A stretch of 64,000 nt of DNA from Nitrososphaerales archaeon (GCA_032906765.1 JAJTZB010000006.1:1-64000); one strand, 5' to 3'; counted from the stretch's first letter, positions 8,918 through 27,596 are shown. A program made the numbers and translations. The notes: generated from the sequence alone by a model not told the origin.

Positions 8918-9596
8918 CCTTGGGAACCGCCCTCGCTTCCCCGATTTCGAGGAAACCTGAATCCCCTTTCCAGTGCTTGGTGCTGGAGACGATTTCGATT
9001 CTCTTGGAGAAGAGCGGGCAGTCGAGGACGAATGTCTCTCCCTCTCCTCCCTCAAGGCCCACGTGAAACCTGTACTTGGCCCCGAGCTCAACCAGCTCGT
9101 CGACCGCGTGAGAGTCGAGCACCCTGCCGAGCCACCTCTCATCCAGCCCGAGGGCCGAGACGCTTACCACTTCCACGAGGAAGCCTTCGCGGAGCAGCGT
9201 CCGGAGGTGTGTCTCCGGGTCGACGTGCCATAGAGGGGAGACGCACTTGAGGCCAAGTTCCCGACAGATCCTATCCACGCGACTCTTCTGGTAGACGCTG
9301 GCGAGTGCGCCTGTGTATATGCCATCCAATCCGAACTTCTCTTTGGCTGAGAGGATTACGGCCGTCAGGTCGGCGAGCTCCTTTTCCTTGACGCCCGCAG
9401 TCTCGCCGACGACCTGAGGGACGCCGGCAGCCTCTGCTTGGAGCTTCGTCCACTTCACGTTGGGGTAGTGGAACATGTACGACTCATCGGTACTTGGAAA
9501 GACAGTCACAAGGCAGGCTAGTTCCTCTCGCTTGGAGGCAAGGTAAGCTGCGTATGTCGAGTCCTTGCCGCCACTAAATAATACTCCGACCTTCGT
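8907..9596 (-). CDS. dph6: Diphthine-ammonia ligase Dph6 with an apparent ACG start
   Basis: Dph6 amidates diphthine on elongation factor 2, the last diphthamide step. The N-terminal PP-loop GVLFSGGKDS is essential for ATP binding and is complete only if the gene extends past the GTG at 9509. The frame is closed by TAG just before codons CAG-ACG-AAG-GTC, and no ATG, GTG or TTG lies ahead of the PP-loop. ACG at 9594-9596 gives M-KVGVLFSGGKDS and 229 aa, the usual archaeal length. A GGTGA motif lies exactly 6 nt before it. A frameshift or sequence error is the alternative. Dph2 is encoded at 24291. Confidence 0.85.
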   Translation of the reverse strand, partial: TKVGVLFSGGKDSTYAAYLASKREELACLVTVFPSTDESYMFHYPNVKWTKLQAEAAGVPQVVGETAGVKEKELADLTAVILSAKEKFGLDGIYTGALASVYQKSRVDRICRELGLKCVSPLWHVDPETHLRTLLREGFLVEVVSVSALGLDERWLGRVLDSHAVDELVELGAKYRFHVGLEGGEGETFVLDCPLFSKRIEIVSSTKHWKGDSGFLEIGEARAVPKVSR

Positions 9597-9602
9597 CTGC
9601 TA

Positions 9603-9607
9603 TCACC
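9603..9607 (-). promoter_or_regulatory. Ribosome-binding motif GGTGA deciding the dph6 start
   Basis: Read on the minus strand, GGTGA is followed by the 6-nt spacer TAGCAG and then ACG. The spacing equals that before rpoF's ATG (13039-13052), supporting ACG as the initiator. Confidence 0.5.
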
Positions 9608-9703
9608 CGATTGCGGGAGCGCCGTCGAGCCTTCTATAATGGTTCGTCATGCCTCGGCCGAAGGTGTCCCTGTGGGTTACGGGGAGTTCGGACCGCTCCT
9701 AAT

Positions 9704-9712
9704 CTTTTAAGC
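9704..9712 (+). promoter_or_regulatory. TATA box of the SRP54 operon
   Basis: CTTTTAAGC lies about 40 nt before the SRP54 ATG, predicting a transcript start near 9735 and a leader of about a dozen bases. Confidence 0.55.
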
Positions 9713-9747
9713 AACCGATTGAGGTCGGTCCTCTTCGGGTTCGCGCT

Positions 9748-11070
9748 ATGCTAGATTCACTGAGGGAAGGCCTCCAGAATGCTGTAAAGAAACTGGTCGG
9801 AGTGAGCGTCGTGGATGAGAAGGCTGTCAAGGAGTTCGTCCGCGACCTCCAGAGGACTCTCATTCAGGGCGATGTCAACGTGAAGATTGCTCTGGAGGTG
9901 ACCGACAGGGTCCAGAGGAGAGCCCTTGAAGAGAAACCCACTGGAGGGGTGACAAGGAAAGACCAGGTCGTCTCCATCCTGTACGAGGAGTTGGCGCGCC
10001 TGCTCGGGGGAGAGGGCGGGCTGCAGCTCGACAAGACGAAGACAAGCGTCCTAGTCATGCTGGGCGTCCAGGGCTCCGGCAAGACCACTACCACCGCGAA
10101 GCTGGGGAGGCTCTTCACGAAGCGCGGGTTCAAGGTTGGTGTGGTCGCTGCGGACACGTTCAGGCCCGGCGCGGTGACGCAGCTCCGGACGCTCTGCGAG
10201 GCCTCGGGGGTGGACGTCTTCAGCAATGACAAGGAGAAGGACTCGGTCAAGATTGCGAAGGAGGGGAGGAAGCACTTCGAGGGGTCGAAGAACCTAATCA
10301 TCGTTGACACAGCGGGAAGGCACAAGGAGGAGTCTGGGCTCCTCAAGGAGATGAAAGAGATCGTTGACGGAGTGAAGCCAGACTACAGCGTCCTCGTTAT
10401 CGATGGGACGATCGGGCAGCAGTGCTACAACCAGGCGCTGGCATTTCACCAAGCTTCGCCCGTCGGTGGAATAATCGTAACGAAGCTCGACGGCGCGGCC
10501 AAGGGAGGCGGCGCTCTCGCTGCGTCTGCAGCCACTGGCTCGAAGATATTCTACGTCGGCACTGGGGAAAGGATAGACGACCTCGAGGAGTTCGTGCCGA
10601 CGCGGTTCGTGGGAAGGCTGCTCGGCATGGGCGACCTGAAGGCGCTCGTCGAGATGGTGAAGTCGGCCGAGATAGAAGTCGACGAGAAGAGGGTCCAGAG
10701 GATGATGTCAGGGAAGCTGACGATGGACGACCTGCTCTACCAGTTCGAGCAGGTGAAGAAGTTCGGCTCCTTCAAGAAGGTGATGGAACACATCCCAGGG
10801 TTGTCCGGCGCGGTGAACGTCGATGAGCTGGACAAGGCGGAGAGCAGGGTGAAGGTGTACAAGGCGATTATTCAGTCGATGACAGGCGACGAGCGGGCCG
10901 ACCCAGAACGGATCAACGCGTCCAGGGTCAAGAGGATAGCGAGGGGATCAGGAAGGACGGAGAAAGACGTCAGGGAGCTGCTCTCCAGGTACAAGCAGAT
11001 GAAGTCGCTGACGAAGAGTAGCAAGGGCCGCGAATTCAGACAGATGGTACGCCGAATGGGTGGTCAGTAG
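9748..11070 (+). CDS. srp54: Signal recognition particle protein SRP54 (Ffh)
   Basis: This is the GTPase of SRP; with 7S RNA it carries ribosomes making secreted or membrane proteins to the FtsY receptor. The N domain (1-90) leads to the G domain with GVQGSGKTTT (G1), DTFRPGA (G2), DTAGRH (G3) and TKLDGAAKGG (G4). The Met-rich M domain (about 300-440) ends in basic RNA-binding helices. At 440 aa it is full length. It heads the run srp54-pus10-(LAGLIDADG gene)-L21e-rpoF. Confidence 0.97.
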   Translation: MLDSLREGLQNAVKKLVGVSVVDEKAVKEFVRDLQRTLIQGDVNVKIALEVTDRVQRRALEEKPTGGVTRKDQVVSILYEELARLLGGEGGLQLDKTKTSVLVMLGVQGSGKTTTTAKLGRLFTKRGFKVGVVAADTFRPGAVTQLRTLCEASGVDVFSNDKEKDSVKIAKEGRKHFEGSKNLIIVDTAGRHKEESGLLKEMKEIVDGVKPDYSVLVIDGTIGQQCYNQALAFHQASPVGGIIVTKLDGAAKGGGALAASAATGSKIFYVGTGERIDDLEEFVPTRFVGRLLGMGDLKALVEMVKSAEIEVDEKRVQRMMSGKLTMDDLLYQFEQVKKFGSFKKVMEHIPGLSGAVNVDELDKAESRVKVYKAIIQSMTGDERADPERINASRVKRIARGSGRTEKDVRELLSRYKQMKSLTKSSKGREFRQMVRRMGGQ

Positions 11071-12175
11071 GTTGACCGAGGCGCTCGAGAGGTATCGCCT
11101 CTGCGAGGCTTGCTTCGAGCGTCAGGCTGGCAACGCCAAGGATTTCGAGGTTGTGCGCGGAAGCGACTGCTTCATTTGCGCCGGGCTGATGGACCGGGTC
11201 GAACCTGTGTCGGAGAGCGCGCGTCGCCAGGCTGCGCGCTACGAGTTCGGGACGTTCGGCGTGGGCGTGATGATGCCCGAGGGCGTCCAAGAGAGGGAGG
11301 ACGAAATCAGGTCGACGCTCCGACTGAAAGGGAAGCAGACCGTCAAGACACAGCTGTCGGCGCTCGTGGCCGCAAGGCTCGCGCAGGAGCTAAGGAAAAA
11401 GCAGAACAAGACGAACCCAGACCTGACGATCCTCGTGGACTTTGGAGGCTCTCAGATCAAGCTGCAATCGAGGCCCCTCTTCTTCTACGGAAGGTACGCC
11501 AAGCCCCGAGGCGTCGCTCAGAGACGGGAGCTGTGCAGGGTCTGCATGGGCAAGGGATGCGAGTCTTGCGGGCAAACTGGCTTCGACACCTCGCCGAGTG
11601 TGGAGGAGAAGGTGGGGAGGAAGTTGGTAGCGGCCACTGGCGCAAGCGGAGCCAAGTTCACCTGGATTGGAAGCGAAGACATGGAGAGCGCCGTGGGGGG
11701 AACCGGCCGGCCCTTCGTCGTCGAGCTGAAGAACCCGAGGGCTCGGAAGGTGCCGAAGCGATTCGTTGCGGGAGGCCGGGGGGGACGCGTTGCAGTCTCC
11801 CGTGGACGTATTCTTCCCTCCAAGCCGACCAAGCTGCCCACCTTCAGATTCCACACCCGAATCACCGCGATAGCCATCGCCAAAATCAACGACGAGGAGC
11901 TTGGAGAGCTGGCGAAGGCTTTCCGAAACGCGACCGTGGTCTTCGACAGGCCAAACGAGAGGCCCGTTTCGAAGACTGTGTACAGCGTCAGGGCCAAAGC
12001 TCGCGGGAGGACCCTGATGATAGACGCCGAGCTCGACGGTGGCCTCCCAGTCAAGAGGTTCGTAAGCGGCGAGCTGGTTTCGCCTTCGGTTTCGGAAGTT
12101 CTAGGAATCCAAGTTAGATGCCTGCGATTTGACATTATGAAAGTGGTAGAGAAGGGGGGGCTTATGTTTGCGTAA
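11060..12175 (+). CDS. pus10: tRNA pseudouridine synthase Pus10
   Basis: Pus10 makes pseudouridine at positions 54 and 55 of archaeal tRNA. The 371-aa protein has N-terminal Cys pairs (CEAC, CFIC), a further Cys cluster (CRVCMGKGCESCG) near residue 155, and the Pus10 signature KFTWIGSED ... GRPFVVELKNPR near 195-225. The GTG at 11060 overlaps srp54 by 11 nt; a TTG at 11072 just after the srp54 stop is an alternative start. Pus10 beside L21e is a familiar archaeal order. Confidence 0.9.
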   Translation: MVSRLTEALERYRLCEACFERQAGNAKDFEVVRGSDCFICAGLMDRVEPVSESARRQAARYEFGTFGVGVMMPEGVQEREDEIRSTLRLKGKQTVKTQLSALVAARLAQELRKKQNKTNPDLTILVDFGGSQIKLQSRPLFFYGRYAKPRGVAQRRELCRVCMGKGCESCGQTGFDTSPSVEEKVGRKLVAATGASGAKFTWIGSEDMESAVGGTGRPFVVELKNPRARKVPKRFVAGGRGGRVAVSRGRILPSKPTKLPTFRFHTRITAIAIAKINDEELGELAKAFRNATVVFDRPNERPVSKTVYSVRAKARGRTLMIDAELDGGLPVKRFVSGELVSPSVSEVLGIQVRCLRFDIMKVVEKGGLMFA

Positions 12176-12737
12176 GATAGTGTCACTACTGGAGATGTAT
12201 GGCGTGAGAACCTTGCCTGTTTGGTCTAACGAGGAAACGACCGCGATGGGGTGGTTCATGATTACCGAAGGGACAGTCGGTGTTCATAGGATCACTACCT
12301 CTGGAGTCGAAGTACCGATAATCAGAATGTGCAGTTTGGATTGTGGCCTTGTTGATTATGCATCGGCTAGGTTCGGTACTAAACCCGATGTCGTGACCAG
12401 GCAATCCAGAGGAGGAGGATTCTGTCTCACTGTTTATTGTGCGAGAGCTACGGGCACCCGAGCAACAGTATCTCTATTGAGGATGGGGCCCAAGATGCCC
12501 GAAGGAGCAAGGAAGCGAAGGTTCAGAGATTTCGTACTGAAAGAAGCTGTTCCGAGAACTTCGAGGGCGATTTCGTTGCCATATGTGGCACCAAGGCTTC
12601 CGAGTCTGGTAGGTATGAGCGCAGAAGAAATCAGGCGTGGCCTCGATGCGTGGGTCGTTGCCGAAAGCCACAAGCCCACGGAACCATGGCGGCAGAAGGA
12701 ACGCGAGGCGTGGTTGCGTTCAATACAGAGAAGTTAA
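12168..12737 (+). CDS. LAGLIDADG-like homing endonuclease
   Basis: The 189-aa product shows one degenerate LAGLIDADG motif, GWFMITEGTVGVHR (about residues 28-41). It is followed by the expected beta-strand pattern and a basic segment (EGARKRRF) near 115. A single motif would imply a homodimer. It starts at a TTG overlapping pus10 by 8 nt and fills the space before L21e. It is not in an intron or intein. GC is lower than in its neighbours, consistent with acquisition. The family call rests on motif pattern only. Confidence 0.55.
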   Translation: MRKIVSLLEMYGVRTLPVWSNEETTAMGWFMITEGTVGVHRITTSGVEVPIIRMCSLDCGLVDYASARFGTKPDVVTRQSRGGGFCLTVYCARATGTRATVSLLRMGPKMPEGARKRRFRDFVLKEAVPRTSRAISLPYVAPRLPSLVGMSAEEIRRGLDAWVVAESHKPTEPWRQKEREAWLRSIQRS

Positions 12738-12765
12738 GAACCTTTGAACGGTGGGGTTGCACTTA

Positions 12766-13050
12766 ATGGCCAAATCTCACGGCTATAGGCGAGGAACAAG
12801 GGCGCTTCTCAGCACGAACGAGAAGAAGGGTCTGAGCAGCCTACTCAGAGAGTACTCTCCGAACGACAGGGTTGTCATAAAGATAGACCCCTCACAGGTG
12901 AAGGGCATGCCCCACAGGAGGTTCAACGGCCTTGTTGGCGTTGTGACCGAGACTGGAAGGCGTACGATTACGCTCGAAGTACCTGTTGGTGACAAGATGA
13001 AGAAGGTCATAGCCAGGAAGGAACATGTGGCGCCGCTGGGTGGAAGCTGA
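12766..13050 (+). CDS. rpl21e: Ribosomal protein L21e
   Basis: A 94-aa large-subunit protein with the typical start AKSHGYRRGTRALLS and the SH3-like core KIDPSQVKGMPHRRF. ATG 12766 is chosen because it gives the canonical N-terminus; an in-frame GTG at 12751 adds five unneeded residues. The sequence AGTTAAGAAC about 30 nt upstream may be its own TATA box, useful given the intervening endonuclease gene. The stop overlaps rpoF by 1 nt. Confidence 0.95.
   Translation: MAKSHGYRRGTRALLSTNEKKGLSSLLREYSPNDRVVIKIDPSQVKGMPHRRFNGLVGVVTETGRRTITLEVPVGDKMKKVIARKEHVAPLGGS
13039..13043 (+). promoter_or_regulatory. Ribosome-binding motif GGTGG of rpoF
   Basis: GGTGG, six bases, then ATG at 13050. This normal start supplies the spacing reference for the non-AUG starts at 9596, 23788 and 27593. 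Confidence 0.55.
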
Positions 13051-13376
13051 TGTCAGAGAAACTGGTGAAGAAGGTGTTGACCATCCCGGAGGCCAACCAG
13101 ATTCTCCAGAAACTGAACGTGGAAAAAGCAGACCAGATTCAGAAGAGGACCCTGGACTACACAACCAAGTTCGCGAAGGCGACCCCTGAGGCTGCCAAGA
13201 AGATGAAGAAGGAGCTGGAAACAGAGTGCGGCCTCACGGAAGAGGAGGCGGTCGAGGTAATCAACGTCATGCCAAAGTCCATGGAGGAGCTGAGGACGTT
13301 CACGTCCGGCTGGAGGAAGCTCCTGCCCACAGAGACGCTCGAGAAGACCCTGAAGATACTGCGCCCGAAGTCCTGA
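13050..13376 (+). CDS. rpoF: RNA polymerase subunit F (Rpb4)
   Basis: Rpb4 forms the polymerase stalk with Rpb7 (RpoE). The 108-aa protein begins LVKKVLTIPEANQIL and has the HRDC-like helical C-terminus ending LEKTLKILRPKS. It overlaps L21e by a single base (TGATG), so the two are co-translated. Its usual neighbour DUF655 lies 0.75 kb further on, displaced by a small antisense ORF and a LAGLIDADG gene. Confidence 0.93.
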   Translation: MSEKLVKKVLTIPEANQILQKLNVEKADQIQKRTLDYTTKFAKATPEAAKKMKKELETECGLTEEEAVEVINVMPKSMEELRTFTSGWRKLLPTETLEKTLKILRPKS

Positions 13377-13421
13377 GCGGCTAAGAACGCGCGGCTGCTG
13401 AACCATTTATGAGGTCGGCGG

Positions 13422-13562
13422 TTAAATCGCGCTCGACTGGCGGTGCGACTCCCTCTCCTTCCTGAGTAGCCAGTGAATTACTTCGCAGAAGCTGACGACC
13501 CCCTTCTCGTTCCTCCTCAGCGTGTCCGATTCTGCATCTTTCACTTCTGGACCGAGGTGCAC
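13422..13562 (-). CDS. Small uncharacterised protein, 46 aa
   Basis: A GTG-started minus-strand frame gives a 46-residue peptide including RRNEKGVVSFCEVIHWLLRK. Codon choice (AGG, AAG, GAG, GTC) matches neighbouring genes, which argues for coding. No domain is recognisable and the start is uncertain. It lies between rpoF and the LAGLIDADG gene on the opposite strand. Confidence 0.35.
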   Translation of the reverse strand: MHLGPEVKDAESDTLRRNEKGVVSFCEVIHWLLRKERESHRQSSAI

Positions 13563-13613
13563 GCGTGGAGCTTAAAGAACTAACGCGAGTGACGAGGAGG
13601 TTGGCGGCCGGGA

Positions 13614-13988
13614 TTGCGCGAGCCGAACCCAAGGGAGTGGGACTTGCAAGATGTGGAAAACTGGTACGAGGCTGAGGGGACCATCGGCAAGACAGAGGGA
13701 AGGGTATTGATCTCCCAGAAGGACAGGGAGGTGCTGAAGAAGCTCTGTCAGGCGCTGAGGAGGGGGCTGGGGATAGAGAGGTGCCCCATATACGCAGCCG
13801 GGCTTGATGGGTACGAACTCCAGCTACCGATAGACGAGGCGGCGAAGTTTGTCAGATACTTCAAGGATAGGGTCAAGACGAAGAAGGCGAGGTGGGATAT
13901 GGAGGAACTTGAAAAGGCCATCCTGAGACCGGTCAGGCAGGTGAGGCAGGTTAGGAGAAGGGCGCGGGAGACTCTTCTCTTCGGCTGA
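13614..13988 (+). CDS. Single-motif LAGLIDADG-like endonuclease
   Basis: A 124-aa protein with the degenerate motif NWYEAEGTI (residues 16-24), a helical stretch ISQKDREVLKKLCQAL, the second strand pair (GYELQLP), and a basic C-terminus (RRRARE). This is the layout of a compact LAGLIDADG domain. It starts at TTG 13614, about 40 nt after a TATA-like GCTTAAAG. It sits between rpoF and DUF655, which are adjacent in many archaea, so it looks inserted as a free-standing gene. Confidence 0.55.
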   Translation: MREPNPREWDLQDVENWYEAEGTIGKTEGRVLISQKDREVLKKLCQALRRGLGIERCPIYAAGLDGYELQLPIDEAAKFVRYFKDRVKTKKARWDMEELEKAILRPVRQVRQVRRRARETLLFG

Positions 13989-13992
13989 CGCT

Positions 13993-14003
13993 TTTTTATA
14001 TAC
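13993..14003 (+). promoter_or_regulatory. TATA box upstream of DUF655/ksgA
   Basis: TTTTTATATAC is the strongest TATA-like sequence in this part of the window. It predicts transcription from about 14020, giving the DUF655-ksgA message a leader of roughly 100 nt. Confidence 0.6.
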
Positions 14004-14016
14004 GAATAGCATTACG

Positions 14017-14103
14017 ATGCCGCATAGGCAAGGCGAGACTTCGTGCACCAACCGACACTACCACATCCGAAGGAGCTGCGCTCCCGCTAGATTGGCTAGT
14101 TGA
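14017..14103 (+). CDS. Possible 28-aa leader peptide
   Basis: An ATG about 20 nt behind the TATA box opens a 28-codon frame with CTNRHYHIRRSCA. It ends 17 nt before the DUF655 start. It may be a leader peptide or chance; there is no homology I recognise. Confidence 0.2.
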   Translation: MPHRQGETSCTNRHYHIRRSCAPARLAS

Positions 14104-14120
14104 GGAAACGGTGCTGAAAG

Positions 14121-14678
14121 ATGCTCCCTGCCGACAAGAAATACGAAGAGTTCGCATACGTGCTTGACTTCCTCCCTAGGGGCAAGTCCGCAGTAATCAA
14201 GGGCAGGGAGGGGGCCATCGTGCAGGCCATCGGGGAGGAGAGGTTGACGCTGCTGGAGTTGCTGGCCATGGACAACCAAGACTTCGAGGTCGGGGAGAAG
14301 GTCAAGATTGGGAAGGAAGGGAGGGAGAAGATCGCGAGCGTGCTCGGGAAGCTTACCTTTGGCGAGCTCTCGCCCGAGTCGGTGAGCGCCCTGCAGCAGG
14401 TTGTCGAGACACTCGTGAAGGCGAGCGAGGCGAAGTACGTCGCCTACTTCAACGAGCTGCAGCCGCTGACGCCGAGGCTCCACGGTCTGGAGCTTATTCC
14501 CGGAATAGGCAAGACGTTCATGAAGGAGATCGTCGCTATGCGAGAGAAGCAACCGTTCTCGAGCTTCGACGACCTGCAAAAGAGGGTCGGGCTCAGGGAA
14601 CCGGCCAAGCTCATAGCCAAGCGCATAGTTCAAGAGCTGTCAGGCGACGAAAGGATCAACCTGTTCATAAGAAAATGA
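14121..14678 (+). CDS. DUF655 predicted RNA-binding protein
   Basis: A 185-aa protein conserved across archaea next to rpoF and ksgA. The N-terminal part (residues 1-70) has a beta-barrel pattern; residues 110-185 carry a helix-hairpin-helix (LELIPGIGKTFMKEIV) typical of nucleic-acid binding. Its place beside the rRNA dimethyltransferase suggests a role in rRNA or ribosome biogenesis, which is inference. The stop overlaps ksgA by 4 nt (ATGA). Confidence 0.88.
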   Translation: MLPADKKYEEFAYVLDFLPRGKSAVIKGREGAIVQAIGEERLTLLELLAMDNQDFEVGEKVKIGKEGREKIASVLGKLTFGELSPESVSALQQVVETLVKASEAKYVAYFNELQPLTPRLHGLELIPGIGKTFMKEIVAMREKQPFSSFDDLQKRVGLREPAKLIAKRIVQELSGDERINLFIRK

Positions 14679-15385
14679 AAAGGCGGAGGCTGGGACAGCA
14701 CTACCTCGTCGACGCCGCTGTGGTTGCGCGGCTCACTTCGCTCGCAAACATCCGGAGCGGCGAGAGGGTGCTGGAGATTGGAACGGGCAAGGGCGCTCTG
14801 ACTAAGGAGCTCTGTCGTACGTCGTCGCAGCTCGACGGCTACGAGGTGGACGAAGAGAACTATCGTCAGACACTCGACGTCGTTGGCAACAGCAGTGCGC
14901 GGATTCACCTCGCAGACGCCTTCGAGGAAAAACCGGAGTTCGACGTCCTGGTCTCGAGCCTTCCTTACTCCCGCTCCGCTTCGTTCGTTGAATGGATCAG
15001 CCAGCTCCGCTACGACAGAGCCGTGGTCCTCCTTCAGGAGGATTTCGTGAAGAAGGTTGTCTCGCCTCCGGGCAGCAGAGACTACAGGGCCATTTCGGTG
15101 GTCGCCCAGGCTTCGTCGGAGATCTCGGCCCTCGACAGAGTCCCCAGGTCGGCGTTCTCCCCAGAGCCCAAGGTCAACTCGGTCATCGTCGGGATGAAAC
15201 CTAAGATAGTTCTCTCTGCCATTCAGGTGGCCGGAATCAAACGCCTCTTCGCACTGAGGCGGAGGGAGGTTGCCGCGGTCGTTGCGAAGATTGGAGGCCG
15301 TCGGGTAGGAGGGTGGAGCCATCGGAGAGTGTATTCGCTGTCACCGAACGAAGTTCTAGCTCTCGTGGCGCAGCTGCAGAGCTGA
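14675..15385 (+). CDS. ksgA: 16S rRNA A1518/A1519 dimethyltransferase KsgA/Dim1
   Basis: The enzyme uses S-adenosylmethionine to dimethylate two adjacent adenines at the 3' end of small-subunit rRNA. Motif I LEIGTGKGALT and the catalytic SLPYS (family NLPY/F) are present, and GQHYLVD is the typical N-terminus. At 236 aa it is slightly shorter than most archaeal forms (about 250-270), with a compact C-terminal domain. It is co-translated with DUF655. Confidence 0.92.
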   Translation: MKRRRLGQHYLVDAAVVARLTSLANIRSGERVLEIGTGKGALTKELCRTSSQLDGYEVDEENYRQTLDVVGNSSARIHLADAFEEKPEFDVLVSSLPYSRSASFVEWISQLRYDRAVVLLQEDFVKKVVSPPGSRDYRAISVVAQASSEISALDRVPRSAFSPEPKVNSVIVGMKPKIVLSAIQVAGIKRLFALRRREVAAVVAKIGGRRVGGWSHRRVYSLSPNEVLALVAQLQS

Positions 15386-15695
15386 CACGAGGGATTTATG
15401 GTTCTGGCAACTTGTCGTCGGACAAGTTACCTTGGAGGCATCAGCTCTGAGGATTGGAGCCGTCGTCTGCTCGTTCCCCATCACAGCTTCACTCACCTCC
15501 CGCTCCTGAGCGAACCACACTCAGACATCCCATTGATTGACGCGAGATGGCACCCAGAGGGCATAGCCGCTCGCGTTCGATTGCCTTTCGACGGATAAGG
15601 CATAACCACCATAGCATGGCCAATGTTCGTATTTAGTCACCACTCGACGATAGGTTACCAGAACAGGATTTATCCAGCCGCATGCTGGCCTAGCC
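15386..15695 (+). other. 310-nt gap after ksgA
   Basis: No convincing gene. It holds a perfect 8-bp hairpin, AACTTGTC-GTCG-GACAAGTT, at 15409-15428 that could mark the end of the ksgA transcript. A GGATTTATGG at 15391 resembles a TATA box. An unannotated small RNA is possible but unsupported. Confidence 0.4.
15666..15675 (+). promoter_or_regulatory. TATA box for the SPOUT methyltransferase
   Basis: GGATTTATCC is centred 26 nt before the GTG at 15696, so the message is probably leaderless. Confidence 0.6.
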
Positions 15696-17563: not shown

Positions 17564-17587
17564 TTAGATTCTCTTGTAGGCTCGACG

Positions 17588-17827: not shown

Positions 17828-17865
17828 CCTACCTTACGCTTCCCGAATCGTTGTGTGACTGTGCA

Positions 17866-17875: not shown

Positions 17876-17904
17876 ACCCCGCCCCGCCTTGAGTCGAGCT
17901 TCCC

Positions 17905-19105: not shown

Positions 19106-19228
19106 TCTACCACTAATACCATAATGGCACTAGATAAGCGTACCTGTCGCGCGGGTCTTCCATGGCAAAGTGGGCGATTAAGTGCAGCAGGCAAATGGAA
19201 GTGAGCCTTGTGCGCGATCGTCTTCTAC

Positions 19229-19459: not shown

Positions 19460-19586
19460 CAGGAACCGGTCCGAATTCAGGATCAGTCAAACAGAGGCAG
19501 AAGCCTCCTTCCTCGCCTCGCTCAACTGGTACGGCATAGCGGCGGAGCGCGACTGCAGGGTAGTCGATTGGTCTTCGTTAAGATGC

Positions 19587-19946: not shown

Positions 19947-19998
19947 AGAGAAGAGACGATCACGACGAGTGGGGACATCGACCCTCCAAAGAGAACCG

Positions 19999-20038
19999 GG
20001 GGGAGCAGGTAACCCGGGTTCAAATCCCGGCGACCGCA
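19999..20038 (+). pseudogene. 3' fragment of a tRNA gene
   Basis: A complete T-arm, CCGGG-TTCAAAT-CCCGG, followed by CGACCGC and discriminator A, is the 3' part of a tRNA. The matching 5' acceptor strand (GCGGTCG) is absent from the preceding 150 nt, as are a D-arm and an anticodon arm. It is a fragment rather than a gene, of the kind left at integration sites. Its last 17 bases recur at 2639 and partly at 21018. Confidence 0.7.
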
Positions 20039-20087
20039 CACTAACTTTGGTCAGATACATTATAGGCTCAAAGCAAGAGAGGAAGGG

Positions 20088-20912
20088 TCAATCTCGACCT
20101 ACTCCTTCAAGGAACTGTCTGGTCCTCAAAGGCTTCCAACCCAGTGTTTTCTCGATTTTTCTGGTTGATATGTAAGGCGCAGCACAAGCAATGTTGAAAA
20201 CTTGGCCGTAGGCTTTCTGGTTCAAAGTAGCAAGCAAGAATGCTCGAACGACGTCGTCGACGTGAATATTCGCACCGTCATCGACCTGCTTTTGATCTAC
20301 GAAAACGTACTCTATTCTGAAGACCGTGACCGGTAACCCGTACTGATGGTGATACATCAAGCAAAGCTTCTCAAGCGCCAGTTTCACAACTGCGTATGCA
20401 GGTCCAGGGTCTCCATCCCAAAGCTCGGGTCTGCACACCGCATCTTCGTCAGCGGCGTTCTCCGATAGAGGACGACCCCGGAGGGAAATCGTGCGTTGGG
20501 TATCCCCATAGACCGCAGAACTGCTCGAAAAGAGCAAGTGCTTCACTCTGTGGGACCGCGCTGCTTCGAGCAGATTGAGGGTGCCTCTGATGTTGGCCCC
20601 GAACAAGTCTGGAAGTGGGAGTCTGTGTCTCCAAGTAAAGCCGTCCCAGTTGATTGCAAGATGGTAAATGATATTCACCCCGCGTGTGGCTTCCTCAACG
20701 GTGCGCCTGTCCACCATTCCTCCATGCAACTCGTCTTTACCAATACCAAAGAATTCCATACCATCGTGTGACTTCAATTCACTGAGCTCTCCATACCTTG
20801 TGTCGAGAACCCTCACTTTCTGACCGTCGTCCAGCAATCTGCGCACAAGCCTAGATCCGAGGAGCCCAGATCCGCCTGTCACAAGAGAGACATTTCTTGT
20901 TCTGCTTGGCAT
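20088..20912 (-). CDS. NAD-dependent epimerase/dehydratase (extended SDR)
   Basis: A 274-aa sugar-nucleotide-type short-chain dehydrogenase. The NAD-binding glycine motif is TGGSGLLGSRLVRRLL near residue 12. SSSSAVYGD near 130 and YAVVK (about 173-177) supply the catalytic Ser and Tyr-Lys. It is slightly short at the C-terminus compared with GalE-like enzymes. The substrate is probably a nucleotide sugar, unproven. The gene is lower in GC than its surroundings and is flanked by tRNA-end-like repeats (20026-20036 and 21019-21029), so it may be a mobile cassette. Confidence 0.85.
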   Translation of the reverse strand: MPSRTRNVSLVTGGSGLLGSRLVRRLLDDGQKVRVLDTRYGELSELKSHDGMEFFGIGKDELHGGMVDRRTVEEATRGVNIIYHLAINWDGFTWRHRLPLPDLFGANIRGTLNLLEAARSHRVKHLLFSSSSAVYGDTQRTISLRGRPLSENAADEDAVCRPELWDGDPGPAYAVVKLALEKLCLMYHHQYGLPVTVFRIEYVFVDQKQVDDGANIHVDDVVRAFLLATLNQKAYGQVFNIACAAPYISTRKIEKTLGWKPLRTRQFLEGVGRD

Positions 20913-21017
20913 GCCTTAGCTTGCGCCGCATCGAAATCCATTAACCTTTACCCCTCTTACAAGCCGTCGTTAGGGTATCGCCTCGAATGGATTTCCACCC
21001 ATCTTGTTGGGTGGTAT

Positions 21018-21029
21018 TCCCGGCGACCG
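21018..21029 (+). repeat. tRNA-3'-end-like repeat, copy 3 (partial)
   Basis: TCCCGGCGACCG matches the core of the repeats at 2639 and 20022. It follows a 7-bp hairpin (CCACCCA ... TGGGTGG, 20992-21014). Confidence 0.45.
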
Positions 21030-21096
21030 TACCCATGCCTAGAGAGCAAATGATTCTCCGTTCGTTTCGTTAAATTCTTACAGGCTATTCCCCCAC

Positions 21097-21759
21097 GTGG
21101 TCCGAATTCTCTGGTTCAAGGAGACGAGCCGCTGGGCGAGGAGGGGAATACCTCTCAGGGTGGTCTGGGTCAGCCCGAGGCAGCTGGTGATCCTTCTCTC
21201 GTCCTTCTTGGTCGGCATGGTCTTCTCTTCCCCACTTCCGACGGCCACGCTGAAGCTAATCCCTGCCAGCTCGTTCCTTCTCGCCGGCCTGGTGCTGGCC
21301 TTCTGGAGGGTGAAAATGCTGACGCCGGAGCAGCTCATTCTGGTTAGGCTCCGCGGGCTCACGACGATTGCGCCTCGGGCGAAGGTGAAGGGGAGCGGCA
21401 GAGAGGAGGCTCTTGGGATGAAGCCTGAGGCGGAGGAAGAAATGGCCTTCCAGATGGAGGCCGACAGCGCGGAGTCGTTCACCCCGCTGTCCATAAGCGG
21501 AAGGTGGAAGAGGACGAAGCTCCCTAGGAAGGTCTCCCTCTGCGTGGACGGAGTGCCCAGGCCTGGGGCCGAGGCCCTGGCCACGCCCATCAGCGAGACT
21601 GAGAGCGGCTACACGATAATCTTCCCGCTGACCATCGCGGACATCGGCGTACACGAGCTAGAGGTGAGGGTCGAGGGCGAGGAGAAGCCCGTCTACAGGA
21701 GGAAGGTGGACGTGAAGGTGAAGGGGACGAGGTCGCTGGAGATGAAGTGGGTCTCTTGA
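21097..21759 (+). CDS. Two-TM membrane protein with cytoplasmic or surface C-domain
   Basis: A 220-aa protein. Residues 27-45 and about 52-70 form two membrane helices close to the N-terminus (PRQLVILLSSFLVGMVF; SSFLLAGLVLAFW), followed by a charged ~145-residue domain. The N-terminal layout is reminiscent of PrgI/VirB3-like inner-membrane proteins, but the likeness is weak. I do not recognise the family. The start is a GTG at 21097. Confidence 0.55.
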   Translation: MVRILWFKETSRWARRGIPLRVVWVSPRQLVILLSSFLVGMVFSSPLPTATLKLIPASSFLLAGLVLAFWRVKMLTPEQLILVRLRGLTTIAPRAKVKGSGREEALGMKPEAEEEMAFQMEADSAESFTPLSISGRWKRTKLPRKVSLCVDGVPRPGAEALATPISETESGYTIIFPLTIADIGVHELEVRVEGEEKPVYRRKVDVKVKGTRSLEMKWVS

Positions 21760-21788
21760 TCATCCTGCCAAGTCACTTGCACTGACGG

Positions 21789-22451
21789 CTAGGTTTCTCT
21801 CAGAATTCCGGCGATGTCCCTCCTAAGCTGCAGGACGGAACGAAATTGAAATGACCGCTTAATCCCAACTCGCACGGCCCCGACGACATTGGCCTCATTG
21901 TCGTCGATAAACACTGCCTGGTTAGGTGGTGCACCCACCTGCTTGAGAACGTGTTGGTAAGCCCGTCTGCTAGGCTTTACTGCTCCTATCTCGCATGAAG
22001 CAAATAACCCATCAAACAGCGTGTCCCACCCAAGTCTCCTTCCCATCTCGACATGAGGAGGAGAAGTGTTCGAGAGTGCGTATACCCTGTATCCCCTGTG
22101 CCGCAGCAGTCTGATGATTTCCACTGTTCCTCTCCTCAGTCTGGCGAGCCTCTGGATCGGGAATGTTAGGAGCCAATCCGCGTCATCTCCCTTCTTCATC
22201 TTCTTTCCCACTCTTCTGAGACAGGTAGCGATGTAATCATGAGAGGAGAGTCCGCCGGATTCAAATTCCACAAGGCCTTCTTCCATCACCTGTTTCATTC
22301 TGCCAAACGGAACCTCGTACCTATCGGCAACGAACTTGACGAGTGGATCGTTGTTCTTCCACTTGGTGACTACGCCTCCCATGTCAAAGATGAAGAGAGG
22401 TTGCGTTGATTTAGACTCGGTGAGTGCACCCAATCTTTTCTCAAGCTCCAC
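21789..22451 (-). CDS. HAD-superfamily hydrolase
   Basis: A 220-aa phosphatase-type protein of the DhlB/HAD-IA group: motif I is FIFDMGGVV near residue 19 (variant DxGGV form), motif II YALSNTSPP near 125, Lys in GAVKPSRRAY near 158, and motif III FIDDNEANVVGA near 186. The substrate is unknown. The GTG start lies beside a TATA-like element shared with the divergent ECW gene. Confidence 0.82.
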   Translation of the reverse strand: MELEKRLGALTESKSTQPLFIFDMGGVVTKWKNNDPLVKFVADRYEVPFGRMKQVMEEGLVEFESGGLSSHDYIATCLRRVGKKMKKGDDADWLLTFPIQRLARLRRGTVEIIRLLRHRGYRVYALSNTSPPHVEMGRRLGWDTLFDGLFASCEIGAVKPSRRAYQHVLKQVGAPPNQAVFIDDNEANVVGAVRVGIKRSFQFRSVLQLRRDIAGILRET

Positions 22452-22461
22452 CGTTAAATCG
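22452..22461 (+). promoter_or_regulatory. TATA box of the ECW/LAGLIDADG module (locus A)
   Basis: CGTTAAATCG is centred 26-27 nt before the ATG at 22483, predicting a leaderless message. Confidence 0.5.
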
Positions 22462-22482
22462 ATTCAATCCTCCTTTTTCAAG

Positions 22483-22903
22483 ATGTCCTATATCTATGAG
22501 GTCGGTCCCATCAACTACTTCAACCTCAGCGAGACCGAAAGGAACGCCGTTCTCTCAGGGTTCCATACAGGGTGCACGAGGTCTTCCCATACAAGGGCAG
22601 GTCGATCGTAGCAGACTACTTTCTTCCCAGGATGAACCTCGTGGTGGAGTGCTGGATGAGCGAGAGCAGGCGGGGGTCGCGCTGGGCTGGATGGAGAGGA
22701 ACGGCATCTACGTCGACTACATGTTCAGGAGGCTGAAAGAGGTGTACCCTGGGATCAAGTGCGGCGCCCTCGTGGAGGCCACTCAGATTGACCTTCCGTC
22801 GCTGAGGGAGTGGGTGGGTGCTGTTATGCCCCACGCGGATTGGATTGCGTTCACCATGGAGGAGTTCGCGTCGGTCATCGGAGGCGTTCTGGGTGCCGAG
22901 TGA
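22483..22903 (+). pseudogene. ECW-family nuclease-like gene, two frameshifts (locus A)
   Basis: Reading three frames in turn gives a protein similar to those at 36793 and 37224. It runs MSYIYEVGPINYFNLSETER, then VPYRVHEVFPYKGRS-IVADYF and NLVVECW, then GVALGWMERNGIYVDYMF and a tail ending EEFASVIGGVLGAE. The first shift lies near 22555. The second falls in a G-run (CGGGGGTCGC, about 22669-22678), where one missing G explains it. The Asp and Glu-Cys-Trp core of the family is kept. The downstream LAGLIDADG gene overlaps its 3' end by 11 nt. Confidence 0.6.
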
Positions 22904-23747
22904 AGGGACCAGGCCGCCTGTTCACAGCCCCGAGTTCAAGCCGTACTTCGAAGGCGTGATCAAATCGAGCAAAGGGCTGCTGGAAGCTGTGGAGAGGATG
23001 GGATACGGAGGTCCTTCGTCAGTACGGTATCATATGAAGAAGCTTGGTATCGAGGACCCTGACCATTGGTATGTTAGACCGCCTGCTTGGAGCCACAAGT
23101 TCGCGAGCTATTTCGAGGATATCGTGAAGACGAGCAAGAACGCCAGAGAGGCCGCGAACAGACTGGGCTACGCGGCACCGTGTATGATCTATCATCACGT
23201 GAAAAGGCTGGGAATCGAGACGCCGGAAGGATGGCTGTTGAAGCCGGGAGTGCGCAGGCAACGCCAGGGAATGGTGCCGGAGGTCATAATGCACGATGCA
23301 ATCGATAGGGCATGGTCGGGTGGTCTGGTTCAGGGAGAATCGGGCATCGTCGCTCACTATTCCAAGAGAACAGATGTCACGTCCCTCGAGCTTAGGACAG
23401 GAATGACGGAAGAGGCTCCGATTTTCAAACTTTGCGACTGCTTCGGAGTCGCCCGGCCGCAAAAACCGAGGCCTAGACATGGCAAGCTGAAGCCCATTTG
23501 GGAATGTGTGGCTGGAGGGTTGAGAGCTTACCGTGTCTTACAAGAGCTACTTCCTTTTCTTCTTGGTGGCAAGCTGAAAGAAGCCGAAAGAGCTTTGGAG
23601 TTCTTCGCCCCGGATGGGTACCACAAGGGTCATTTTGGAGGATATGATGTCTGGCCCCGGGACCAATTTCCGTCAAGATCAAAGGGGCGTCCAGCTCTAA
23701 CTCGCGAACAGCCTCGTCTACAGGAGGCGAAGCGGAATGAAGGTTAA
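22893..23747 (+). CDS. LAGLIDADG endonuclease with two N-terminal repeats (locus A)
   Basis: The 284-aa product starts at GTG 22893. Two ~45-residue repeats come first: PYFEGVIKSSKGL ... YHMKKLGIEDP and SYFEDIVKTSKNA ... HHVKRLGIETP. They look like helix-turn-helix units for DNA binding. A LAGLIDADG-like motif WSGGLVQGESGIVAHYS (near residue 137) and its downstream strands follow. The motif has Ser where Gly is usual. The order repeats-then-nuclease suggests a site-specific homing enzyme. It overlaps the ECW remnant, as HNH genes do at the other loci, and ends just before L10e. Confidence 0.6.
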   Translation: MPSEGTRPPVHSPEFKPYFEGVIKSSKGLLEAVERMGYGGPSSVRYHMKKLGIEDPDHWYVRPPAWSHKFASYFEDIVKTSKNAREAANRLGYAAPCMIYHHVKRLGIETPEGWLLKPGVRRQRQGMVPEVIMHDAIDRAWSGGLVQGESGIVAHYSKRTDVTSLELRTGMTEEAPIFKLCDCFGVARPQKPRPRHGKLKPIWECVAGGLRAYRVLQELLPFLLGGKLKEAERALEFFAPDGYHKGHFGGYDVWPRDQFPSRSKGRPALTREQPRLQEAKRNEG

Positions 23748-23776
23748 TTAGGAGTCCCCAGGGGCGGATTCTCGAA

Positions 23777-23781
23777 GGTGA
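23777..23781 (+). promoter_or_regulatory. Ribosome-binding motif GGTGA deciding the L10e start
   Basis: GGTGA, six bases (GGGATA), then ATC at 23788. An ATA three bases earlier is the only other candidate upstream of the conserved N-terminus. Confidence 0.5.
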
Positions 23782-23787
23782 GGGATA

Positions 23788-24294
23788 ATCCACGGAAGGA
23801 ACTATCGGGAGTGGAAAGGCCAGTTCTACAGCAAGAAGTTCGCGCCGGGAGCGCCAAACCCGAAGGTAGCACGCTTTACCACTGGGAAGTCTAGGCCCGA
23901 CTACGACGTGATGCTGAAGCTCATCTCGGAAGGGAGGGTCCAGATAAGGCACAACTCCCTGGAAGCCGCGCGGGTGGCTGCCAGCAAGAAGGTCGCGCTT
24001 TTGGGGGAGGAGAACTTCTACCTGAAAGTGGTCACATTTCCACACCTCGTGCTTCGCGAAAACAAGATGATTGCGACCGCGGGCGCGGACAGGCTCCAGG
24101 AAGGCATGAGGAAGGCCTTCGGCAAGCCGATTGGTCTGGCGGCCAGGGTGGAAGCCGGGAGCGTGATCTTGGAGATGAGCGTGATGGCGGAGAACCTTGA
24201 GAAGGCGAAGGAGGGCATGAAAGCCGCGTCGACCAAGCTCCCGATGAAGACGCACACCGAAGTGGTCAAGCTAGAGAAGCCGGTCACGCAATGA
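23788..24294 (+). CDS. rpl10e: Ribosomal protein L10e (uL16) with an apparent ATC start
   Basis: The large-subunit protein that shapes the tRNA-binding corridor. The conserved N-terminus HGRNYREWKGQFYS is encoded directly after ATA-ATC, with TGA closing the frame at 23779. No ATG, GTG or TTG lies ahead of it; the first ATG (23911) would remove about 40 conserved residues (APGAPNPKVARFTTGKSRPD). From ATC the protein is 168 aa, a normal length. GGTGA lies 6 nt before ATC. The stop overlaps dph2 by 4 nt. Sequence error remains possible. Confidence 0.88.
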   Translation: MHGRNYREWKGQFYSKKFAPGAPNPKVARFTTGKSRPDYDVMLKLISEGRVQIRHNSLEAARVAASKKVALLGEENFYLKVVTFPHLVLRENKMIATAGADRLQEGMRKAFGKPIGLAARVEAGSVILEMSVMAENLEKAKEGMKAASTKLPMKTHTEVVKLEKPVTQ

Positions 24295-25328
24295 CCGTCA
24301 GGATAGACGAGGCCAAAGTCTTCAGGCTCATAGAGGAGAAGAGGCCCCGGACCATCCTCGTCAACGCTCCAGGCGGGCTGCTCAGGCAGACGAAGGAGCT
24401 GATGGGAAGGGTTCGCGAGAAGTACGGCGTCACGTGCATACTCGCAGGCGACACCTGTTTCGGGATCTGCGACACGGTTGACGACGACGTGCCGAAGTTG
24501 CAGGCCGACATGGCGCTGCACATAGGGCATAACGCGACGGTCCAGACCGTCGGAGACTTCACGTACCTGATCGACGCTGTAGACGACGTGAAGTTCGACG
24601 GTGTGGCGGAGAAGGCGGCAAAGATGCTCTGTGGTTACCACAGGCTCGGCCTTGTGACGTTCAGCCAGCACATGCAAGAGCTTGATAGGGTCAAGGCCAT
24701 CTTTGAGGACGGTGGTTTCGAGGTGTCGCTGGGGAAGAAGAACAACCTCCTGATGGACAGCCAAGTTTTCGGCTGCGACTTCTCGACGATCTACCCACTC
24801 CGCGACTCGGTCGACGCCTTCTGCTTCCTGGGCGAGAGCGAGTTCCATGCGGTGGGAGTGGCGCTGGCTACCGGCAAGCCCACTTTCATGCTCGACCCGT
24901 ACCTCGACGAGGTGGTGAGCATGGAAGAGGCTGCCGGAGAGAGGAGGAAACGCGCTGTTCTTGCCGTTTACAAGGCCCTGGACGCGAGGGTTTTCGGCGT
25001 GATAACGGGGATGAAGGAGGGTCAGAGGATGCTCGGGAGGAGCAGGTGGATCTCCCAGAGGCTAGAGATGCACGGACGAAAGGTCGTACAGCTGGCCCTG
25101 AGGGACATAACTCCGGAGCGGCTCGCACCCCACAGGGAGATTGAGGCGTTCGTCCAGACGGCGTGCCCGAGGATATCGGTCGACGGGTTCACGTTCGACA
25201 GGCCGGTGTTGTCGATTCCCCAGGCAGACGCGCTCGTCGCCCTCCTCGAAGGAAGGGAGATAGGCGAGTTCTTGCAGAGACCGAAATGGATAGAGCTGAC
25301 CGTAGGCCTAGTAAAGAGAGTGAAGTAA
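24291..25328 (+). CDS. dph2: Diphthamide synthase subunit Dph2
   Basis: An archaeal homodimeric radical enzyme that transfers the 3-amino-3-carboxypropyl group of S-adenosylmethionine to the target histidine of EF-2. The 345-aa protein has the three spaced cysteines for the 4Fe-4S cluster: Cys in AGDTCFGICD (near residue 60), one near GCDFSTIYP (about 162), and one in QTACPRIS (about 288). It is co-translated with L10e. Dph6, the last enzyme of the pathway, is at 8907. Confidence 0.93.
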   Translation: MTVRIDEAKVFRLIEEKRPRTILVNAPGGLLRQTKELMGRVREKYGVTCILAGDTCFGICDTVDDDVPKLQADMALHIGHNATVQTVGDFTYLIDAVDDVKFDGVAEKAAKMLCGYHRLGLVTFSQHMQELDRVKAIFEDGGFEVSLGKKNNLLMDSQVFGCDFSTIYPLRDSVDAFCFLGESEFHAVGVALATGKPTFMLDPYLDEVVSMEEAAGERRKRAVLAVYKALDARVFGVITGMKEGQRMLGRSRWISQRLEMHGRKVVQLALRDITPERLAPHREIEAFVQTACPRISVDGFTFDRPVLSIPQADALVALLEGREIGEFLQRPKWIELTVGLVKRVK

Positions 25329-25329
25329 C

Positions 25330-25893
25330 ATGGAGAAGAAACCCGTAGCTCTGCCTGGAGACAAGCTGGCCGTGTCCGAGGAATACCTCCCTGGGCCGCA
25401 CGTCTACGACGATTCTGGTCTTCTGAGAGCCCTCGCCGTCGGCACTGTGCAGAAGGACCTTCGCAAGATGGAGATTTCGATAAAGCCGTCGGTGGACGCG
25501 GGAGTCCTGAAGACCGGCGACTACGTGACCGGCCAAGTGGAGAACGCCGCGACAAGCACTGCCGGAGTCAAGATCTATTACGTCAACGGCAAGCCCACGG
25601 ACAAGGGGTTCACGGGCACGGTCATGCTCCGCTCAAGGGAGGCGGGCAGGGGAGTGCGGGGGCCACCGCCGGTCAAGCTGGGTGACATAGTCAGGTGCGG
25701 AATCCATAGCACGATGAACGGCATCATCCACCTCTCGGTCGATGACGACAGGATGGGGGTCGTTTACGCCCTGTGCGGCAACTGCGGCAGGCCGATGCAG
25801 AAGGGAGGCAACAGGGCCAAGTGCGACGAGTGCGGGAACGTGGAAGAAAGGAAGCTCGCCAACGACTTCGGGCAGACGCCTATTCGGCCGTGA
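25330..25893 (+). CDS. csl4: Exosome RNA-binding subunit Csl4
   Basis: Csl4 caps the Rrp41-Rrp42 ring of the archaeal exosome and recruits substrates. The 187-aa protein has the N-terminal domain (LPGDKLAVSEEYLPG), an S1 domain (about 60-145) and a C-terminal zinc ribbon (CGNCG ... CDECG). The start lies 1 nt after the dph2 stop. Its TGA stop is formed exactly at the right end of an inserted IS (TGACATCCTCCCAC), so the natural last residues may have been replaced. Confidence 0.92.
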   Translation: MEKKPVALPGDKLAVSEEYLPGPHVYDDSGLLRALAVGTVQKDLRKMEISIKPSVDAGVLKTGDYVTGQVENAATSTAGVKIYYVNGKPTDKGFTGTVMLRSREAGRGVRGPPPVKLGDIVRCGIHSTMNGIIHLSVDDDRMGVVYALCGNCGRPMQKGGNRAKCDECGNVEERKLANDFGQTPIRP

Positions 25894-27162
25894 CATCCTC
25901 CCACAACTGAAGGTCGTGAGTTTCCAGCGACGAGCTTCTTGCTGGGTGGCATGATTCCCGTCGCGTATAGTTCCTGCTTCACCGGCCGGGTTTGCGCGTC
26001 CCGTTGCCGGGGCGGGTAGAGGCGCCGTCTCCACAGGCTTGAGTTCGGGCATGTCCTGCCCTACCTGAGCGAGTCCTCGCTTCAGCACAATCCAGGCCGC
26101 ATTGAAGTCGCGGTCCACTGTCCTCTTGCAACCCCGGCAGTCAAAGACGCGGACCCTGAGAGGGGTCTGGTTCAGCGCCCCGCAGAAGCAGCACTCCTGC
26201 GTCGAGTAGGCCGGAGGCACCCTGACTACGAGCTTCGCGGAGCGGGCCGCCTTGTACTCTGAGAAACTTCGAAGCTGGCCCCACCCGGCATCGGCGATGG
26301 ACTTCGCCAAGGCGTGGTTGCTGACCATGTTCCTGACCTTCAGGTCCTCGAAGGCGACCAAATCGTGCTTCCGCACCAGCTCAGCGCTCAGCTTGTGGTT
26401 GAAGTCCGCTCGCTGTCGGGCGACCTTGGACGACTGGATGGCTAGCCGCCTGCGCGCCTTCTTCCTGTTCTTCGAGCCTTTCCGCGTCCTGGAGAGTTTC
26501 CGCTGGAGGCTCTTCAGCCGCCTCTCGGCCTTCCTGAGGAACTGCGGGTGAGGGATCTTCACCCCGTCCGTCGTGGCCATGAGCGACTTCAGGCCCAAGT
26601 CTATACCGAGAGGCGAGGTGAATGCCTTCACAGGTTCCGGTATCTGCACGTCGTCTTCGTACATCAGCGAGGCGTACCATTCACCGTTCGGTTCCCTGAC
26701 CATCGTGCAGGTCTTCAACCTCTCAGAGGGCGGCATCTCCCTGTGGAATACGACCTTGATATTCCCTACCTTCGAGAGGAAGAGCCTCTTCCGAGCCACG
26801 TCGGGTTTCACCGACCCGTTGTACGCCTGGGGATAGGTGAACGAGCCTGATGCGGAGAACTTCTTGAATCTCGGGTACCTGGCGCGGCCCTCGAAGAATG
26901 CCTTGAAGGCCTTGTCCAAGCGCTTGAGTATCTCCTGTCCTGCCTGCGAGTAGAGCCCTCCCAACAATGGGTCTGCGTGCCTCTCTGCAGTGAAGATCCA
27001 GCATTGCTGGCTGTATGAGGTGGAGAGCCGTTTCTCCTCCCAGCGCCGCTTTCGGTGAACCAATGCGTCGTTCCAGAGTCGCCGCGCGGCCACGACCATC
27101 CTCAGCAGCTTCCGCTCCTGCCTGCGGTTCGGATACAGACGGAACCGGAACGCTGACTTCAT
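25633..27162 (-). CDS. tnpB: TnpB RNA-guided endonuclease, reading through the IS end
   Basis: TnpB is a RuvC nuclease guided by an RNA from the element's right end. The N-terminus KSAFRFRLYPNRRQ is typical; RuvC-I is GIDLGLKS, RuvC-II VAFEDLKV, the zinc ribbon CCFCG ... CRGC, and RuvC-III DRDFNAAW, all intact. From ATG 27162 the frame does not stop inside the IS. It continues about 87 codons antisense to csl4 to 25633, giving 509 aa against the usual ~400-430. The tail is unlikely to be functional. Confidence 0.85.
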   Translation of the reverse strand: MKSAFRFRLYPNRRQERKLLRMVVAARRLWNDALVHRKRRWEEKRLSTSYSQQCWIFTAERHADPLLGGLYSQAGQEILKRLDKAFKAFFEGRARYPRFKKFSASGSFTYPQAYNGSVKPDVARKRLFLSKVGNIKVVFHREMPPSERLKTCTMVREPNGEWYASLMYEDDVQIPEPVKAFTSPLGIDLGLKSLMATTDGVKIPHPQFLRKAERRLKSLQRKLSRTRKGSKNRKKARRRLAIQSSKVARQRADFNHKLSAELVRKHDLVAFEDLKVRNMVSNHALAKSIADAGWGQLRSFSEYKAARSAKLVVRVPPAYSTQECCFCGALNQTPLRVRVFDCRGCKRTVDRDFNAAWIVLKRGLAQVGQDMPELKPVETAPLPAPATGRANPAGEAGTIRDGNHATQQEARRWKLTTFSCGRMSRPNRRLPEVVGELPFFHVPALVALGPVASLLHRPAAVAAQGVNDPHPVVIDREVDDAVHRAMDSAPDYVTQLDRRWPPHSPARLP

Positions 27163-27240
27163 GCCACCCAGAAGATAGTACACGTCATTTCACTTAAGCC
27201 CCAATGCGATTCATCCCATGGCTGAAGGAGGTGGGCTTTC
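25894..27240 (-). mobile_element. tnpB-only IS200/IS605-family element (IS1341 type)
   Basis: The right end at 25892-25925 carries the family hairpin; on the element's strand it reads CACGAC-CTTCA-GTTGTG followed by GGAGGATGTCA. The left end near 27197-27240 reads AAAGCCCACCTCCTTCAG ... CATGGGATGAATCG, the family's left-end hairpin. No TnpA is present, so movement needs TnpA in trans. It separates csl4 from rpoL. The exact left junction is uncertain by a few bases. Confidence 0.75.
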
Positions 27241-27296
27241 TCGACTAATTTGGTAAGACGAGAGAATCCTTATCAACTTGACAAGAAGGGGCGGTT

Positions 27297-27596
27297 ATGC
27301 AAAATATGCAGATTCAGACTACCAGCGATGACGAAAAGGGCCTCACGGTTGAGATAACAGGGGAGGACTACTCTCTGGCGGAGATTGTCCATCACGAACT
27401 CCTGGAGGAGAAGAGCGTCACGTTCGCAGGAGTGCTCCCCCCACACCCGCTGATCAAGAAGCTTGTACTGAAGGTACGGTCCCAGCGAATAAAACCAGAG
27501 AAGGCGTTCGTCAACAGCGTCCAGCGCGGGGCGGAGACGACTCGGGAGCTCTACGAAAGCGCGCGGAAAGCCCTCGGCAGTGGTGGGTCGGGCTGA
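27297..27596 (+). CDS. rpoL: RNA polymerase subunit L (Rpb11)
   Basis: Rpb11 pairs with Rpb3 (RpoD) to form the assembly platform of RNA polymerase. The 99-aa protein has the family core EDYSLAEIVHHELLEEKSV and a helical dimer-forming C-terminus. The stop TGA overlaps the proposed tfs start (CTGA). The IS just upstream may have separated it from csl4, so its promoter probably lies between 27240 and 27290. Confidence 0.92.
   Translation: MQNMQIQTTSDDEKGLTVEITGEDYSLAEIVHHELLEEKSVTFAGVLPPHPLIKKLVLKVRSQRIKPEKAFVNSVQRGAETTRELYESARKALGSGGSG
27582..27586 (+). promoter_or_regulatory. Ribosome-binding motif GGTGG deciding the tfs start
   Basis: GGTGG, six bases (GTCGGG), then CTG at 27593: the same spacing as before rpoF's ATG. 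Confidence 0.5.

Follow-up and report, generated by a model that had tools for sequence, protein, structure and literature searches.

Several conserved genes of a Nitrososphaerales archaeon, among them dph6 (diphthine--ammonia ligase), L10e (uL16), and tfs (transcription factor S), seem to start on near-cognate codons with the help of a strong Shine–Dalgarno (SD) sequence, and this appears to be a heritable trait of the family Candidatus (Ca.) Gagatemarchaeaceae, a reading to which we assign a probability of roughly 0.86 on comparative sequence evidence. The three genes lie in the window, i.e., the first 64,000 nucleotides (nt) of JAJTZB010000006.1 (GCA_032906765.1), whose section from 8,918 to 27,596 had been covered by a first-pass annotation. 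The source genome (G000) is a bin of 1.77 Mb in 13 contigs, nearly all of which was read, and the main comparison genome, G006, is a complete (one-contig) family member of which 1.1 Mb was read. Judged from its L10e gene, the source genome is a member of Ca. Gagatemarchaeaceae, group I.1c Nitrososphaerota, because its close relatives, bins named Thaumarchaeota or Nitrososphaerales, include Ca. Gagatemarchaeum stordalenia bog_1369 and palsa_1368, which have been assigned to the single family Gagatemarchaeaceae (group I.1c) (PMC10640624). The lineage compared consists of soil archaea, and "family" refers to Ca. Gagatemarchaeaceae in all counts below.

Proposed Start Sites of dph6, L10e, and tfs

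As the first-pass annotation had claimed, none of the three genes offers a usable ATG, GTG, or TTG, and in each of them GGTGR stands exactly 6 nt ahead of the codon at which homologues start (Table 1). The dph6 leader reads GGTGA-TAGCAG-ACG (9607..9594, minus strand), with an in-frame TAG two codons 5' of the ACG, and residues 2–222 of the product align to positions 2–218 of the hidden Markov model (HMM) profile PF01902. The L10e leader reads GGTGA-GGGATA-ATC (23777–23790), and between the in-frame TGA within GGTGA and the conserved HGRNYR the frame offers just GGG, ATA, and ATC. The tfs leader reads GGTGG-GTCGGG-CTG (27582–27595), and its open frame contains no ATG, GTG, or TTG before 27814. 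HMM profiles reach residue 1–2 of the proposed dph6 and tfs proteins. The same arrangement, as had also been noticed, precedes the canonical start of rpoF, which reads GGTGG-AAGCTG-ATG.

Table 1. Positions in the window of the genes, start codons, and SD sequences discussed.
Feature	Position	Strand	Basis or remark
dph6 coding sequence	8907..9596	-	profile alignment
dph6 start codon, ACG (proposed)	9594..9596	-	upstream in-frame stop, PF01902 alignment, family column
dph6 SD, GGTGA, 6 nt ahead of ACG	9603..9607	-	sequence; duplex with 16S tail
rpoF GGTGG, 6 nt, ATG (canonical comparison)	13039..13052	+	sequence
L10e (uL16) coding sequence	23788..24294	+	profile alignment
L10e start codon, ATC (proposed)	23788..23790	+	family start column
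L10e SD, GGTGA, 6 nt ahead of ATC; its TGA is the in-frame stop	23777..23781	+	sequence; duplex
rpoL, upstream partner of tfs, canonical start	27297..27596	+	sequence
tfs coding sequence	27593..27937	+	TransFacS4 profile aligned 1 to 1
tfs start codon, CTG (proposed), overlapping the rpoL stop as CTGA	27593..27595	+	family loci
tfs SD, GGTGG, 6 nt ahead of CTG; also codes for the rpoL C-terminus	27582..27586	+	kept in relatives

The comparison of L10e covered 83 distinct genes, 30 from the family and 53 from outside it, and the 30 family genes form one clade on the tree (SH-aLRT 97). Non-canonical codons occupy the start column in 14 of these 30 genes (ATC in 5, ACG in 5, GTT in 3, and ATT in 1) and in 0/53 outside the family (Fisher p = 5e-8), and the tree requires at least 6 changes between start-codon states. 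In 12/14 non-canonical genes, the frame downstream of the upstream stop is free of ATG, GTG, and TTG. The dph6 column is ACG in 12 of the 27 family genomes read and TTG, ATG, or GTG in the remainder, and ACG was not seen at this column among the few outgroup matches; in 7 of the 12 ACG genes an in-frame stop lies at most 7 codons (21 nt) upstream with no canonical codon in between. Among 30 family loci read, tfs starts on CTG in 23, GTG in 3, ATG in 3 (calls inferred from a match to a pattern allowing any first base and no match to one excluding A), and TTG in 1, and no CTG start of tfs was found in same-order genomes outside the family. The GGTGG/GGTGA-6 nt-CTG arrangement of tfs is present in 4/4 CTG relatives whose DNA was read, and also in the relative with TTG. 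Some sites, such as the tfs CTG, are kept across genera; others (L10e, dph6, and ThrRS) switch between ATG/GTG/TTG and near-cognates. All non-canonical codons are one position from AUG, except the GTT of three related L10e genes.

Because the same columns carry odd codons in independent family genomes, these codons are, by the logic of the comparison, inherited and not errors, and the columns are the true start columns. This agrees with the earlier argument that independent sequencing errors would not produce the pattern: in many sister genomes the column holds ACG, ATC, ATT, or CTG, and an in-frame stop frequently precedes it at a short distance, so that the pattern is explained neither by base errors nor by a frameshift error hiding an upstream start. 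In the genes sampled, the sequences compared confine the trait to the family.

Further Apparent Non-Canonical Starts in the Source Genome

For sixteen additional conserved genes of the source genome, the apparent start codon is CTG, ACG, or ATA. Candidates came from comparing the genome with G006 and were curated by hand, the criterion being a conserved N-terminus before any ATG, GTG, or TTG. ATA seems to be used by TFB and RpoH; CTG by ThrRS, an FAD oxidoreductase, CofD, an amidohydrolase, isopentenyl phosphate kinase (IPPK), GcvPB, an Lrp-type regulator, a flavin reductase, and one unknown; and ACG by QueC, a Cu-ATPase, a DUF2203 protein, a TRAM protein, and a second S10 copy. An identical codon is found in G006 for RpoH (ATA), IPPK (CTG), and QueC, DUF2203, and the TRAM protein (ACG), while ThrRS has CTG in the source genome and G025 and ATG or TTG in the 23 other family genomes read. 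AAG and AGG, which are the weakest near-cognates in other systems, were seen at no secure site. Set against 341 secure canonical starts, these genes suggest that non-canonical starts make up a few percent of conserved genes, a hand-made figure and not a census.

A BLAST census of starts against G006 was set aside as a measure of the rate, as it was too noisy (owing to shadow open reading frames, or ORFs, and to alignments that ran on into conserved promoter DNA ahead of the starts), and several forced ORFs were dropped as frameshifted or unclear, including EF-2 on contig C1 and C13:18238, whose column is GCG. S10 was likewise rejected as a core-gene case, since the ACG gene is a second copy and the other copy (C1:244653) has an ATG start. 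The two S10 genes are different, the ACG gene (C7:10981-11289) overlapping the preceding stop, and a contaminant contig is possible. The S10 gene of another family (G038:C121:1874-1908) appears to have GTT at the start column, and its relative in G054 has ATG.

Shine–Dalgarno Pairing and Initiation Machinery

The median SD duplex with the 16S tail is -8.9 kcal/mol for the 19 non-canonical starts of the source genome versus -5.0 for the 341 canonical ones (p = 6.5e-6, and p = 3e-5 when the three window genes are left out; these and the following SD p values are optimistic, the sequences compared being related). Non-canonical starts lie in a register of 4–7 nt in 17/19 cases, and the register of canonical starts peaks at 5–6 nt. 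In the window, the duplexes of dph6 and L10e reach -9.8 and -8.5 kcal/mol, respectively, both in register 6. The association recurs across the family, where L10e duplex medians are -8.5 kcal/mol for non-canonical and -5.2 for canonical genes (p = 3.5e-4), and where an SD that is both strong and in register accompanies 10/14 non-canonical versus 4/16 canonical L10e genes (p = 0.014) and 10/12 ACG versus 3/10 canonical dph6 genes (p = 0.017). No clear excess of codon-by-SD combinations emerged near alignment starts, as GGAGG-like words are frequent in coding DNA.

The first-pass annotation had proposed a regular, ribosome-binding-site-guided initiation at non-AUG codons. The association with a strong SD bears this out, with two corrections. 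A few percent of conserved genes are concerned, and the aid appears to be SD strength in the right register and not the exact GGTGR-6 nt string, which is found at just 2/341 well-anchored canonical starts. What dph6, L10e, and tfs exemplify well is a strong SD, not a GGTGR-6 nt motif fixed across the genome.

The 16S 3' end, GGATCACCTCCTT, carries a normal CCUCC anti-SD, which rules out an altered anti-SD, and its tail, GAUCACCUCCUU, pairs with the SD, so that the complement anticipated earlier is present. The 16S gene itself (C4, ~190 kb, minus strand) seems to be interrupted, ahead of the ACACGTCAGCC region, by an intron-like insertion several hundred bases long. An initiator tRNA at C4:42199 has a CAT anticodon, an A1:U72 pair, and a GGG/CCC stem; its gene (C4:42199-42307) apparently contains two introns, located after the anticodon and in the T loop, respectively. 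A simple pattern search tolerating introns found no second initiator-like tRNA in the source genome. As for the factors, aIF1A is present in 15/15 good genomes, and aIF1, known from archaeal systems to act against non-canonical starts (PMC6237735), was found in 40/46 family genomes and looks normal in G006. No copy of aIF1 (SUI1) was detectable in the source genome, G031, or G023, all more than 90% complete, where a bin gap is possible. Loss of aIF1 is ruled out as the general cause, because most genomes with odd L10e starts retain it.

From these observations, we infer initiation at the odd codons, methionine as the first residue, and a relaxed start selection. A strong SD duplex, formed by a AGGTGATC-type sequence and the 16S tail 4–7 nt upstream, would hold the 30S subunit, and the ordinary CAU initiator tRNA would pair imperfectly in the P site with ACG, CTG, ATC, ATT, or ATA. 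Met-tRNAi would presumably insert methionine at the near-cognate codon, and start selection in the lineage would be relaxed. More tentatively, and at somewhat less than even odds, the start machinery of the whole family could be relaxed, with aIF1 or another factor altered or, in some members, lost, so that near-cognates, and perhaps GUU, would be ordinary starts where the SD is strong.

Alternative Explanations

Sequencing or assembly errors, or decay into pseudogenes, could have removed ordinary starts, and the source genome is indeed a 13-contig bin in which a single error in ATG would likewise yield near-cognates; this is nevertheless highly improbable, given that ACG, ATC, ATT, and CTG recur at the same columns in independent assemblies from different projects and never in outgroups, that the tfs CTG is retained in 23 loci, that the genes are intact and universal, and that the type of codon correlates with SD strength. 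Quite unlikely, too, are canonical starts further upstream, giving extended N-termini, or reading by a frameshift from, or coupling to, the preceding gene. Overlaps with the upstream gene exist for tfs (CTGA with rpoL) and for the second S10 copy (TAACG), and GTG or TTG lies 2–3 codons upstream in L145, G027, and G066, but in most cases an in-frame stop is found 0–4 codons upstream and the interval holds no canonical codon, the column stays fixed while the upstream DNA varies among genomes, and termination–reinitiation still requires a start codon. RNA editing would turn ACG (by C-to-U) and ATA (by A-to-I) into AUG, and CTG (by C-to-U) into UUG. It would account for ACG and CTG, and plant organelles are known for C-to-U editing at ACG starts; yet the ATC, ATT, and GTT of L10e cannot be converted to a start codon in this way and the link with a strong SD would be left unexplained, which makes editing a very remote prospect. 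The use of several different codons could also suggest a second initiator tRNA with another anticodon, but the sole initiator-like tRNA found in the source genome has CAT, and the codons share a near-AUG pattern and not one anticodon, so this explanation is extremely unlikely.

Some observations weigh against near-cognate initiation as proposed here. An in-frame canonical codon lies a few codons upstream in 2/14 non-canonical L10e genes (L123, L145) and 2/12 ACG dph6 genes (G027, G066), the GTT of the three related L10e genes mismatches AUG at two positions, and the second S10 copy has almost no SD. SD energy alone separates ACG from canonical dph6 genes weakly (p = 0.06), the 16 further genes were hand-picked from a noisy two-genome comparison in which the exact codon was sometimes inferred, and every genome is a metagenome bin, the one-contig G006 possibly excepted.

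Gene Neighborhood

A TnpB/IS605 OrfB gene occupies 25633-27183 on the minus strand, between a csl4-like gene and rpoL-tfs; in relatives, tfs lies ~2 kb downstream of L10e. In five genomes (G001, G002, G006, G007, and G029), dph6 contains a single in-frame stop inside an otherwise full-length match. The ORFs at 12168-12737, between pus10 and an L21e-type gene, and at 22818-23747 gave no Pfam match.

Relation to Known Systems and Significance

Bacterial infC starts on AUU and is a single autoregulated gene. It resembles the present cases in its SD-dependent codon outside ATG, GTG, and TTG, whereas here ~19 genes in one genome, and many family genomes, are concerned, without evident common regulation. 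Eukaryotic near-cognate initiation uses the same codon set (CUG, ACG, AUA/AUC/AUU), read by the initiator Met-tRNA with one mismatch; however, in eukaryotes the start is placed by scanning and Kozak context, whereas here the SD duplex would place it, and the near-cognate would be the only start of essential genes. Factors of the eIF1/aIF1 type normally suppress such initiation (PMC6237735), and aIF1 in Sulfolobus, according to the work cited in PMC6237735 and PMC8211752, discriminates in vitro against non-canonical starts. It is thus the factor expected to oppose starts of this kind, yet most family members keep it. Compared with standard archaeal SD-led initiation (PMC6237735 and references), the 16S tail, the register, and the initiator tRNA features are the same, and the difference lies in start codons outside ATG, GTG, and TTG (ACG, ATC, CTG, ATA, and ATT). 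The open-access literature searched yielded no previous description of lineage-wide near-cognate starts in archaea.

Gene finders for prokaryotes permit just ATG, GTG, and TTG and, therefore, universal genes of the family, such as L10e, TFS, TFB, and RpoH, should be missed or truncated in annotation; completeness estimates and marker-gene trees would be biased as a result. The family would offer a natural system for how archaeal start-codon fidelity is set by aIF1, aIF1A, aIF2, and SD strength, and for the way in which strong SD pairing can stand in for a proper start codon. If true, a relaxed start machinery throughout the family would be an archaeal parallel to eukaryotic near-cognate initiation.
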